Source of the DNA: Peptococcaceae bacterium BRH_c4b
GTDB lineage: Bacteria > Bacillota > Desulfotomaculia > Desulfotomaculales > Desulfocucumaceae
DNA: 64,000 nucleotides
Direction: 5' to 3'
Assembly (NCBI GenBank): GCA_000961595.1
Contig: LADO01000018.1
Span: 1-64,000, forward strand
A program made the translations under genes and the position numbers. Under the pieces are notes generated by a model that was given only the letters and a program-made list of their open reading frames with translations, did not search any database and was not told where the DNA came from. Positions 44,432 through 48,836 of this stretch are shown piece by piece (positions within the stretch are counted from its first letter, which is position 1; every line of letters starts with the position of its first letter).

Positions 44432-44456
44432 TATGCGCAGTCTGGAGGGACCAAAT

Positions 44457-45344
44457 TTGGATTTCATCAGGGAATTAAAAGCAAGGGCCGCCCTGGTAGA
44501 CAGGGCGTTGGAAGAATACCTTCCCACTGACGGAACTCATCCCGCCGTTATACACGAAGCTATGCGCTATAGCCTATTTGCCGGCGGTAAGAGGTTGCGG
44601 CCGGTGCTGGCACTGTCTGCATCAGAGGTGGCCGGGGGCAGCGTGGAAAAAATAATGCCTGCCGCCTGCGCACTGGAACTCATACACACCTACTCCCTAA
44701 TTCACGATGACCTGCCCGCCATGGATGATGATGATTTCCGCAGGGGCAGGCCCACCTGCCATAAAAAATATGGTGAGGCCATGGCCATACTGGCCGGTGA
44801 CGCCTTGCTGACCATGGCCTTTGAGTTGCTGACCAGTGGAGCCCTGACAGGGGCACTGCCGGCACGTGAGTCTCTAGCGGTTATTTCAGAAGTGGCCGTA
44901 GCAGCCGGCAGTAGGGGACTTGTCGGCGGGCAGGTGGTGGACATAATCTCCGATGACTCAGTGGATCCTGCCACCCTGGAATATATACACAGGCACAAAA
45001 CCGGGGCACTTTACAGGGGGTCCGTGAGGCTGGGGGCCATATTAAGCGGGGCAGAGCGGCACACTCTGGACCGGCTCACTGTATATGCGGAACACCTGGG
45101 GCTGGCCTTTCAAATTGCTGATGACATACTGGATGTAACCGGGGATGAAGAAAAAATAGGCAAGCCGCTAAAGAGCGATGTGAAAAACAAAAAAGCTACC
45201 TATCCGGCGCTATATGGACTGGCGGCTGCCAGGGCCAAGGCGTATGATTGCCGGGACAGGGCTTTGACTCAGTTGGAAGCATTTGGTCCGGAGGCTGATT
45301 TTTTACGCGAGTTGGTAAGGTTTGTGGTTGACAGGGACCACTGA
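44457..45344 (+). CDS. ispA: Polyprenyl (farnesyl/geranylgeranyl) diphosphate synthase
   Basis: 295 residues from TTG 44457, which is correctly spaced from CTGGAGGGA; an ATG at 44433 lies ahead of that site. The first aspartate-rich motif is LIHDDLPAMDDDD and the second is QIADDILDVTGDE. GGKRLRPVLAL and VGGQVVDI are conserved. It condenses IPP with allylic diphosphates for quinone, carotenoid or undecaprenyl precursors. It sits next to the OLE RNA and dxs, the usual isoprenoid context. Confidence 0.93.
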   Translation: MDFIRELKARAALVDRALEEYLPTDGTHPAVIHEAMRYSLFAGGKRLRPVLALSASEVAGGSVEKIMPAACALELIHTYSLIHDDLPAMDDDDFRRGRPTCHKKYGEAMAILAGDALLTMAFELLTSGALTGALPARESLAVISEVAVAAGSRGLVGGQVVDIISDDSVDPATLEYIHRHKTGALYRGSVRLGAILSGAERHTLDRLTVYAEHLGLAFQIADDILDVTGDEEKIGKPLKSDVKNKKATYPALYGLAAARAKAYDCRDRALTQLEAFGPEADFLRELVRFVVDRDH

Positions 45345-45465
45345 GAGGCCGTTGAAAAACTGCGCCTGGCTTTGTCAGGCTCGCCGTCCAGTGCTCACGT
45401 ACTTCCAGTACGCTCCGCGCTGTCCGGCTTCTCCTTCCGCGCCATGCTTGTTTTTGAACGGCCTC
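45345..45465 (+). repeat. 121-bp inverted-repeat element (MITE-like), full copy
   Basis: Ends GAGGCCGTTGAAAAAC and GTTTTTGAACGGCCTC are inverted repeats of 16 bp with one mismatch. Inside are CTGGCTTTGTCAGG and CGTACTTCCAGTACG hairpins. A shorter copy in the opposite orientation is at 32815-32883. It starts at the ispA stop codon. Confidence 0.78.
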
Positions 45466-45689
45466 AGGATATCTCTCGAAACTAATGCGGAGGCTCATTA
45501 AATTTGTATTCGTAACCTAGACTGACCTAAAGTCGGGCGAAGATGAGAGATTTTGTCTATTGGTTCGTATAACGCAGCCAGCCAACGATTCTGCATTATA
45601 CTCTTTAATAGTCATCTTATCCTGGCTGAGGGTGATTAAACAAGCACAGACAGCGGTTTAACACGCTTATAATAATATGATATAATATT
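45466..45689 (+). other. Spacer between the repeat element and OLE RNA
   Basis: No gene. It probably holds the OLE promoter; a TATAAT-like sequence (ATGATATAATATT) lies at about 45677-45689. Confidence 0.4.
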
Positions 45690-46310
45690 CTCTCGGTGTA
45701 AAAGTTTTTGTTCGGTGATACAGTATCCTAGTCGGGAAGGGATTTTCTGAAGGCGGGCCTAAAAATCCGTCAAAGGGCACAGCGATGAAGTTCCTGGTGC
45801 TGGCCTTCAACGCCCAGTTGGGGGCTGGTACTGGGAGTTAAGGGGGTGGGGCGACCTGCAATGGCATGTGGGCGTTGACCCCGCCCCCGTGGAGACCCAA
45901 GTGCGTGGGGAAATTCCAATTGGGATAAACTATGGCTTGGGGTTAAAACCTGCTCGTGGTGAAAAGCTGCGTGCAGCGTAGCCTGCCTTGAGTGGTGGCG
46001 GTGGATTCCGGAATATTGCCCGCTTTTTACATGGGCCCGTGGATTAAGCCGGCAGGTTGAAACCGTTATTGCAAAAGAGGCTAGGAAAAACCCGCACCTG
46101 TTGAGGAAAACTCCTAGGCTGTCCTATTTAGGGGCGGCCCGGGGATTGCAGTGTGGACTAAACGGTAATCCAGTCCCGGTACCGGTAACGGTCCGGATAT
46201 ATCTTTAAAGGGAAACCGCCGGTTTGGCGACAGCCGGTGGGTATATGGGAAAACCAACTGGACCTAAGCCACAATATTTACCCGGGCAGCTGTCACCGGC
46301 ATAAAATATA
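45690..46310 (+). ncRNA. ole: OLE RNA (ornate, large, extremophilic)
   Basis: About 620 bp with no reading frame, G-rich and full of local helices, between ispA and a gene for an OapA-like membrane protein, followed by dxs. This is the known location of OLE RNA in Firmicutes. Conserved-looking blocks are GGGGCGACCTGCAATGGCAT, GACCCCGCCCCCGTGGAGAC, GGATAAACTATGGCTTGGGG and the 3' CCGCCGG...CCGGTGGG and CAGCTGTCACCGGC segments. OLE RNAs form a membrane ribonucleoprotein with OapA and are linked to growth under stress. The exact ends are estimates. My recognition rests on context and remembered sequence character. Confidence 0.85.
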
Positions 46311-46325
46311 TTTTTGAGGTGTCTA

Positions 46326-46913
46326 TTGGGTAATAACAAATCTACCGTTTCCAGCAAGTACGTTTTAGGGGTGTCGCTAACCTCATTCACCCTGGCTGTG
46401 TTTTTCTTTTGGTTATCAGATATAGTGGCCGATAAAATACAAAGCCTAGTGATATCCTTTGTTTTTTTATTGATTATTATACTTGTAGGCATAATGGCCG
46501 ATATCATAGGTGTTTCGGTAACAGCAGCCCATGAAGCCCCCCTGCATGCCCGGGCCGCCAAGAAGGTGGCCGGCGCCCAGGAGGGTGTATATCTTATAAG
46601 GAATGCGGACAGGGTGGCTAATATAATGAACGATGTGGTGGGGGACATTGCCGGTACTGTCAGCGGGGCTCTGGGTATAGCCCTGGCGTTGCAGTTAATG
46701 ACCCGCTGGAAAGATTTCAGCCACCTGATTTTAAATATGGTTATTACAGCCTTAATTGCCGCACTGACAGTGGGTGGCAAGGCGGCGGGAAAAAGAATCG
46801 CCCTTACCAGAGCCAACGACGTAATTTTTGGTGCCGGCAAGGTTATGGCCGGTTTTAGCAGGATTACCGGCATCGATATAACTGGAAAGAATAAACGAAA
46901 CAGCTCCAGATAG
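46326..46913 (+). CDS. oapA: OLE RNA-associated membrane protein OapA
   Basis: 195 residues from TTG 46326, which is spaced 6 nt from GAGGTG. Four hydrophobic helices (about 10-30, 37-62, 107-127, 136-155) and a hydrophilic segment rich in Ala, His and charged residues between helices 2 and 3 (AAHEAPLHARAAKKVAG, RNADRVANIMNDVVGD). It lies just downstream of OLE RNA and 12 bp upstream of dxs. OapA binds OLE RNA and anchors it to the membrane in Bacillus halodurans. Confidence 0.85.
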   Translation: MGNNKSTVSSKYVLGVSLTSFTLAVFFFWLSDIVADKIQSLVISFVFLLIIILVGIMADIIGVSVTAAHEAPLHARAAKKVAGAQEGVYLIRNADRVANIMNDVVGDIAGTVSGALGIALALQLMTRWKDFSHLILNMVITALIAALTVGGKAAGKRIALTRANDVIFGAGKVMAGFSRITGIDITGKNKRNSSR

Positions 46914-46925
46914 GAGTGTGAAGCA

Positions 46926-48836
46926 TTGAGCCTGCTGGCAAATATCAGCTCGCCTGCCGATATCCGGGGGTTGGACAACTCCCAGATGCAGAAGCTGGCT
47001 GAAGAGATCAGACGGGAGATAATTGAGACTGTAGCAAAAAACGGAGGGCACCTGGCCCCCAACCTGGGGGTGGTGGAACTCACCCTGGCCCTGCACAGCG
47101 TTTTTGAAACCCCCCGGGATAAAATTGTCTGGGACGTGGGACACCAGTGCTATGTGCACAAGTTGCTTACCGGCAGGCGGGCGAAATTCGGCACACTCAG
47201 GAAGTACAACGGGCTGAGTGGCTTCCCCAGACCCGAGGAATGTCCTCACGACTCCTTTGCTACCGGTCACAGCAGTACCTCCATCTCGGCAGCCACGGGC
47301 ATGGCCCTGGCCAGGGATCTAAAGGGAGAGCATCATTCCGTGGTGGCGGTTATTGGCGACGGCGCCATGACCGGGGGGATGGCTTTTGAAGCGCTCAACC
47401 ACGCTGGTCACCTGAAAAAGGACATGATCGTGGTTTTAAACGATAATGAGATGTCCATTGCGGAAAATGTTGGGGGGATGGCCAGATACCTGGGGAGGCT
47501 CAGGACTGACCCCAAATATTCCAGGGGCAAGGAAGAAATTGAGCAGATACTGAAAAAGATACCATCTATAGGACCCACAGTTTTGAAATTTGCCGACAGG
47601 CTTAAGGATAGCTTTAAATATCTGGTGGTTCCGGGCATGTTCTTTGAGGAATTGGGGTTTGTGTACCTGGGGCCCATAGACGGGCACAACGTTCAGGATA
47701 TGATTAAAGTACTGCGTCAGGCCAAATCGATCAAAGAACCCGTAATCGTACACGTTATTACCAAAAAGGGCCTGGGTTACGCCCCGGCGGAAAAAAACCC
47801 CGACAAATTTCATGGTATCGGACCTTTTGATATAAAAACCGGTGAAACAGTGAAAAACACCATCAAGCCATCGTACACGGAGGTTTTTGGCAATACCGCT
47901 GTAAAGCTGGCTGCCCGGGACGATTCCATCGTGGCCATAACTGCGGCCATGCCCGGTGGGACAGGGCTTAACCTTTTCGCCAAAGCGTTCCCGCACAGGT
48001 TTTTTGACGTGGGGATTGCCGAGCAGCATGCGGTTACCATGTCCGCCGGACTTGCCGCCAGTGGCTTGAAACCGCTGCTGGCCATATACTCCACCTTTCT
48101 GCAGCGGGCTTATGATCAGCTACTGCATGATGTTTGCCTGCAATCCCTGCCGGTCACCCTGGCCATTGACAGGGCAGGCCTGGTGGGAGATGACGGTCCA
48201 ACTCATCACGGCCTGTTTGACCTTTCGTATTTGAGGCAGATGCCCAATATGGTGGTAATGGCGCCCAGGGATGAAAATATGCTGCAGCATATGCTGCATA
48301 CCGCTCTGGAGTATCCCGGGCCGGCCGCATTACGCTACCCCAGGGGTATTGCCACAGGCTGCCCGCTGGATGCTGAGCCACTAAGCATACCAATAGGGAA
48401 GGCGGAGGTATTACGCGAGGGTAGAGATATTACTCTTCTGGCCATTGGCACCACGGTGGAAATTGCTTATAATGCCGCCACTGCCCTGGCTGCTGAAGGT
48501 GTTTCGGCCACAGTAGTCGATGCCCGGTTTATAAAACCGCTGGATGAAGAATGTATCATCAATCAGATATTGCAAACCAGGACGGTTATTACCCTGGAAG
48601 AAAATGTGCTAAGCGGGGGATTCGGCAGCGCTGTAATGGAATTGCTGAATGCCAGGGGCATATTCGGGATAAAGATACTCAGCATAGGCTTTCCCGATTC
48701 CTTTGTGGAACACGGGGATAAAAACCTTTTGCTGGCTCGCTACGGTTTAACTGTTGACAACGTTTGCAGCAGCGTTTTAACAATGCTGGGGGCCAGGAGA
48801 AAAGGAAAAAAAATGCCGGCGGCCAGGAGCAGCTAG
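46926..48836 (+). CDS. dxs: 1-deoxy-D-xylulose-5-phosphate synthase
   Basis: 636 residues from TTG after AGGAGTG. Thiamine-diphosphate enzyme that condenses pyruvate with glyceraldehyde 3-phosphate to start the MEP isoprenoid pathway. [17 protein letters not shown], the [18 protein letters not shown] ThDP-binding motif, and [20 protein letters not shown] are present. The length is normal. It is co-oriented with ispA and oapA, so isoprenoid supply and OLE share a region. Confidence 0.96.

Follow-up and report, generated by a model that had tools for sequence, protein, structure and literature searches.

OLE RNAs are among the largest bacterial RNAs whose job is not known. The known OLE and oapA systems (Rfam RF01071) include those of H. 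halodurans, C. acetobutylicum, and C. botulinum. In other species, dimerisation of OLE RNAs was found to involve the A-loops of P4, the loops of P5.1 and P6.1, and the palindromic loops of P9. In the cryo-EM structures of the dimer, the P9.3 loop forms the symmetric kissing contact, named bridge B3 (PMC12286853; PMC12265935). Published work on other species also showed that OapA, bound near P2 and P4a, anchors the OLE particle at the membrane, that OapC binds the k-turn of OLE, and that growth under stress from cold, alcohol, Mg2+, or poor carbon sources is supported by the particle. The P12.2 and P13 regions of OLE are bound by OapB, and the ole and oapA genes were found almost always in tandem (PMC9723947). 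The presence of OLE and OapA was reported to be almost completely mutually inclusive, and the MpfA exporter was found to anticorrelate with OLE across the published survey (PMC11332333).

The window analysed here is a stretch of 64,000 nucleotides from contig LADO01000018.1 of Peptococcaceae bacterium BRH_c4b (assembly GCA_000961595.1), the genome of which is designated G000. The original prediction had placed a structured non-coding OLE RNA starting at 45690, followed by a four-helix OapA-like gene, between ispA and dxs in the isoprenoid locus of a sporulating anaerobe. The Infernal check proposed with it, run as cmscan against Rfam, returned an overwhelming match rather than none, as the RNA (OLE1, Table 1) was found to match the RF01071 model over its full length (model positions 1-616 of 616) with a score of 517.8 bits and an E-value of 5.6e-149, the gathering score being 50 bits. 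The Pfam and NCBIfam matches of the neighbouring genes bore out the isoprenoid locus, the four hydrophobic segments of the product and its full-length alignment to OapA agreed with the predicted protein, and the host type was judged to be right, the sporulation genes spoIVB and spo0A being present further downstream in the window. The predicted start at 45690 did not coincide with the start of the model match and was found to lie 9 nt before it. The consensus scan found 3 promoter-like sites against 0.9 expected, and the site listed in Table 1 ends at 45686, 12 nt 5′ of the model start, making a transcript start near 45690-45699 plausible, a range in which the predicted position is included.

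Table 1. Features of the OLE1 locus, the second OLE RNA, and the partner genes (positions without a prefix are those of the window).
Feature	Description	Position	Strand	Evidence
ispA	farnesyl diphosphate synthase, upstream neighbour	44433..45344	+	Pfam, NCBIfam
OLE1 promoter-like site	TTAACA-17-TATAAT, TG before -10, 11/12	45658..45686	+	consensus scan, position relative to the 5′ end of the OLE model
OLE1	full-length canonical-type OLE RNA	45699..46312	+	Rfam RF01071 covariance model
P4 A-rich loop of OLE1	CTAAAAAT, dimer contact B1	45759..45766	+	alignments; role PMC12286853, PMC12265935
P5.1 loop of OLE1	GCCCA, kisses P6.1 loop GGC in the dimer	45812..45816	+	alignments; role PMC12265935
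P9.3 palindromic loop of OLE1	GGGCCC, symmetric kissing loop, bridge B3	46033..46038	+	alignment; role PMC12286853
P13 hairpin of OLE1	GGCGAC loop, OapB-bound region	46217..46239	+	alignment; OapB site PMC9723947
oapA	OapA, 195 aa, TTG start	46326..46913	+	alignments, profile search, membrane segments, AlphaFold2 model
dxs	1-deoxy-D-xylulose-5-phosphate synthase, downstream neighbour	46926..48836	+	TIGR00204, 872.7 bits
OLE2	full-length OLE RNA	G000:C26:6893-7488 (also L002:1501-2096)	-	RF01071, 407.2 bits, model 1-616
oapB		L150:7421-7744	-	map-infA operon position; PDB 7k9b match, E 8e-10
oapC/YbxF		L151:2075-2383	-	rpoC-rpsL interval; PDB 4lck/3v7e, E about 1e-14

At the sequence level, the alignment showed that OLE1 carries all the dimer-contact elements, namely the P4 A-loop, the P5.1 GCC and P6.1 GGC loops, and the palindromic P9 loop, together with the k-turn strands and P13. 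No terminator was detected on the strand of OLE1, which reads into oapA. A GAGGTG ribosome-binding site was found at 46316-46321, followed by the TTG start at 46326 and a stop codon ending at 46913. OapA was found to contain four hydrophobic segments and the conserved core of the family, fitting a four-helix membrane protein of about 21 kDa, and its full-length alignments with the OapA proteins from other OLE loci gave 45-68% identity. Searches of Pfam and NCBIfam with OapA returned no match, and the PDB sequence search with its profile gave nothing meaningful. The AlphaFold2 model showed a mean pLDDT of 73, and its best structural matches were the CNNM transporters MtCorB and TpCorC, which were weak (E 0.67, probability 0.97) and agree with the likeness of OapA to CNNM transporters claimed in published work. 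In contrast to the MpfA/CNNM Mg2+ exporters, OapA contained neither a CBS nor a CorC domain and had no CNNM Pfam match.

The OLE1 and oapA locus is an ordinary one, typical of its class. In the class sample of 113 genomes, for which class and order yield the identical set, an OLE match was found in 101 genomes and oapA in 101, and the two were adjacent in 89 of the 97 genomes having both, which makes OLE1 a standard member. The gene order xseB-ispA-OLE-oapA-dxs was found in the loci inspected. OLE1 resembles the known OLE and oapA systems in its full-length match, in the oapA gene downstream, and in the isoprenoid context, and differs from them only in a weak P9.3 stem and in the missing exact CCUCC in P6. 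At -15.5 kcal/mol, the P9.3 stem is less stable than that of most relatives (median -23.7 kcal/mol), so that OLE1 could be starting to decay. The CCUCC anti-Shine-Dalgarno core reported in P6 of the H. halodurans OLE was absent in its exact form from OLE1, from the second OLE described below, and from 79 of the 90 OLEs compared, and the exact mimic is therefore not general in the class.

The order xseB-ispA-OLE-oapA-dxs was also observed in a record named as Armatimonadetes bacterium HOT.MB2.58 (JAIMBK010000027.1). A distant transfer was rejected, as the OLE and OapA of this record stood at zero branch length to those of a class genome (G079), and the taxonomic name of the record looks wrong. 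The interval between ispA and the OLE1 promoter was found to contain a palindromic, MITE-like dispersed repeat of 124 bp (window 45345-45468), with a single-strand DNA fold z-score of -5.3. The BLAST search gave 57 matches of this repeat in G000, of which about 16 were near full length at 93-98% identity, followed by 15 matches in a genome of the same genus and 3 in one other genome of the family.

A second full-length OLE RNA (OLE2, Table 1) was found in G000, showing 69% identity to OLE1 over the aligned positions. It is placed on the opposite strand, with rpmA on one side and, on the other, a Spo0B-type gene and then obg. No oapA was found at this locus, the sole oapA of G000 being on contig C13. 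The two RNAs lie on different contigs (C13 and C26) of a draft of 66 contigs, an arrangement that would also be expected if they came from two organisms through contamination or a chimeric assembly. We consider this origin extremely improbable. The 124-bp repeat was found on both contigs at 93-98% identity, plus on many other contigs, the only full-length dxs of the genome adjoins OLE1 on C13, and the contamination estimate is 0.5%, from which C13 and C26 are taken to belong to one genome. The OLE2 gene and its rpmA and Spo0B-type neighbours also match the same-genus genome G004.

No other genome with two full-length OLEs was found among the 113 class genomes, in which up to seven candidates were scored per genome. 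The phylum sample of 398 genomes, 289 of them with OLE, contained no genome with two full OLEs, two candidates having been scored per genome, a limit under which a second copy may have escaped detection. The genomes with several matches, five in the phylum sample (G223, G280, G310, G328, and G355) and two in the class (G016 and G083), were rejected as they contained weak, split matches only. No report of two OLEs in one genome was found in the literature search, subscription papers and supplements being outside it. The new observation is an OLE RNA that lacks the P9.3 kissing hairpin, has a promoter and a terminator of its own, is unlinked to oapA, and occurs beside a canonical OLE in one genome, whereas the OLE1-oapA type of locus and the shortened P9, the latter from the published variant 1, are already known.

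In the tree of 90 OLE sequences, of which 9 were OLE2s and 81 were others, the OLE2 of G000 fell into one clade with the OLEs of the seven other genomes of its family and of G069, which belongs to a different, sister family (sequences labelled f1 and f10), each of these eight genomes having a single OLE. One further sequence, f6_G039, was placed near OLE2 in the tree and was rejected as a member; its P5.1 loop was canonical and its P9 loop read GGGCCC, and its position was taken as long-branch attraction. The GGCC of the P9.3 loop was present in all 81 canonical OLEs and in none of the nine OLE2s, and a P5.1 loop shortened by 2 nt was present in all nine OLE2s and in none of the 81 others. Almost the whole P9.3 arm was gone in six or seven OLE2s, and those of G005 and G007 were found to contain a shorter, different hairpin. 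The P4 A-loop, the P5.1 GCC and P6.1 GGC loops, both k-turn strands, and the P13 loop were found in the alignment to be kept in OLE2. The P4-P5.1 sequence pattern of OLE2 was found in two of the 398 phylum genomes, namely G000 and G069.

The much shortened P9 of OLE2 is shared with the OLE variant 1 of TANB77 and other clades (Fernando and Breaker 2024, PMC11332333), so the missing P9 loop marks OLE2 as a variant and does not exclude it from OLE. By the published description, variant 1 often lacks the P13 loop region, which is present in OLE2, and P7 and P8 of OLE2 are, when set against it, only mildly shortened. The hosts of variant 1 are largely without oapB and oapC whereas G000 contains both, and OLE2, set beside variant 1, lies apart from oapA.

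Each OLE2 of the family was found to have a TTTTACA-N17/18-extended -10 promoter directly 5′ of the RNA, a site that was harder to make out in G069. A hairpin-T terminator stood directly 3′ of the RNA, AAGCAACCC..GGGTTGCTT in the family and another hairpin in f10. Although its promoter and terminator are conserved, the gene occupies three different places. It is located at rpmA/spo0B in the genus of G000, other genera have it beside a TetR-type regulator, and in G069 it is flanked by an MFS transporter region and by an AraC-type response regulator. In the OLE2 alignment, 96.6% of the cells were paired. Changes on both sides were found in 38 of the 168 OLE2 pairs against 14.3 ± 2.7 in 500 shuffles, which keep the column make-up and not the relatedness, the structure having been predicted from the same alignment and being thereby favoured over slid versions. 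This excess points to selection on the structure of the OLE2 RNA.

The covariance-model score of OLE2 is lower than that of OLE1 (407 against 518 bits), and OLE2 has lost P9.3 and the P12 loop and carries inserted sequence in its P6 region, as might be seen in a decaying duplicate with OLE1 doing the work. Such decay appears quite improbable to us, since the pairs of OLE2 are kept with compensatory changes above the shuffles, its promoter and its terminator are conserved between genera that carry the gene at different sites, and six relatives (G001, G002, G003, G006, G007, and G069) showed no OLE other than OLE2.

In these six genomes, oapA was still located between ispA and dxs, and OLE was gone from the ispA-oapA gap, of which about 25 to 290 bp were left. 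The five family loci showed no remnant of an OLE in this gap. In the OLE2 relatives, OLE and oapA therefore share the genome and not the locus. The same six account for most of the eight class genomes in which OLE and oapA were found apart, the other two being G078 and G083, where the OLE match was at a contig edge or broken up. An OLE without OapA in G004 and G005 was considered and rejected, as G004 is without the dxs region and a contig edge cuts through dxs in G005.

The OapA of G000 was found to group in the tree with OapA of the OLE2-only relatives, indicating that oapA descends vertically. The presence of OLE1 in G000 was read as retention, and OLE1 could instead have been lost in the ancestor of the family and its sister family and then re-acquired in this species by recombination between ispA and oapA. 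OLE1 stood near family f4 in the OLE tree, a weakly supported position (72), and no other member of the family shows OLE1, both of which would fit re-acquisition. We nevertheless regard re-acquisition as unlikely. The grouping of OapA with its own family means that only the RNA would have moved, retention requires two losses against one loss and one precise gain for re-acquisition, and more genomes retaining OLE1 may exist, since G004 is without the locus and that of G005 is cut.

The genome search for oapB and oapC, which had been suggested for following up the prediction, found both genes by gene order and PDB matches (Table 1). The Pfam KOW model was discarded as a means of finding OapB, its two matches in G000 fitting L24 and NusG, and YlxQ, a paralog of OapC, was found to be encoded separately on contig C44. 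MpfA, the Mg2+ exporter that elsewhere tends to take the place of the OLE complex, is a CNNM-CBS-CorC protein, and none of this type was found in G000, in agreement with the published anticorrelation (PMC11332333). Among the family genomes, a CNNM match was found only in G005, and none was found in the six others except for OapA itself (weak, in G006). The small G005 genome (1.6 Mb), in which oapA was apparently lacking, dxs being cut at the edge of a contig, contained OLE2 and a full CNNM-CBS-CorC MpfA-like protein (L156:1925-3208).

Taken jointly, it is likely that the canonical OLE1 reads into oapA and that OLE2 works through OapA in trans and has replaced OLE1 in the relatives, with G000 running both. 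OLE1, from its own promoter, would read through into oapA and, by analogy with the published systems, would act as a dimer held at the membrane by OapA and folded with OapB and OapC. It may thereby aid Mg2+ and general stress tolerance, including the Mg2+ task done by MpfA elsewhere. OLE2 would be a working OLE RNA from its own gene, using the single OapA in trans, and it may dimerise without the P9 arch or pair with OLE1 through the remaining contacts. In the close relatives, OLE1 would have been lost from the ispA-oapA gap by deletion, and OLE2 would then have taken over wholly.

It is conceivable, if somewhat doubtful, that two OLE particles share OapA, OapB, and OapC in one cell, the P9 arch being present in OLE1 and absent from OLE2, and that P9 serves specificity or regulation as an option and is not required. 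Mixed OLE1-OLE2 dimers may form, since P9 is the only contact that OLE2 lacks and those of P4 and P5.1/P6.1 look compatible between the two RNAs. If this were true, P9 would be an optional module rather than a requirement for OLE function. G000 and its relatives provide a natural experiment in which the same OapA is present with a P9-arch OLE, with a P9-less OLE, or with both, and the comparison of these hosts bears on the need for the P9 kissing loop, and for dimerisation through it, in membrane docking and in Mg2+ and stress tolerance.

In a separate part of the window, a c-di-GMP-I riboswitch (RF01051) was found at 6331-6243 on the minus strand with a score of 79.4 bits.
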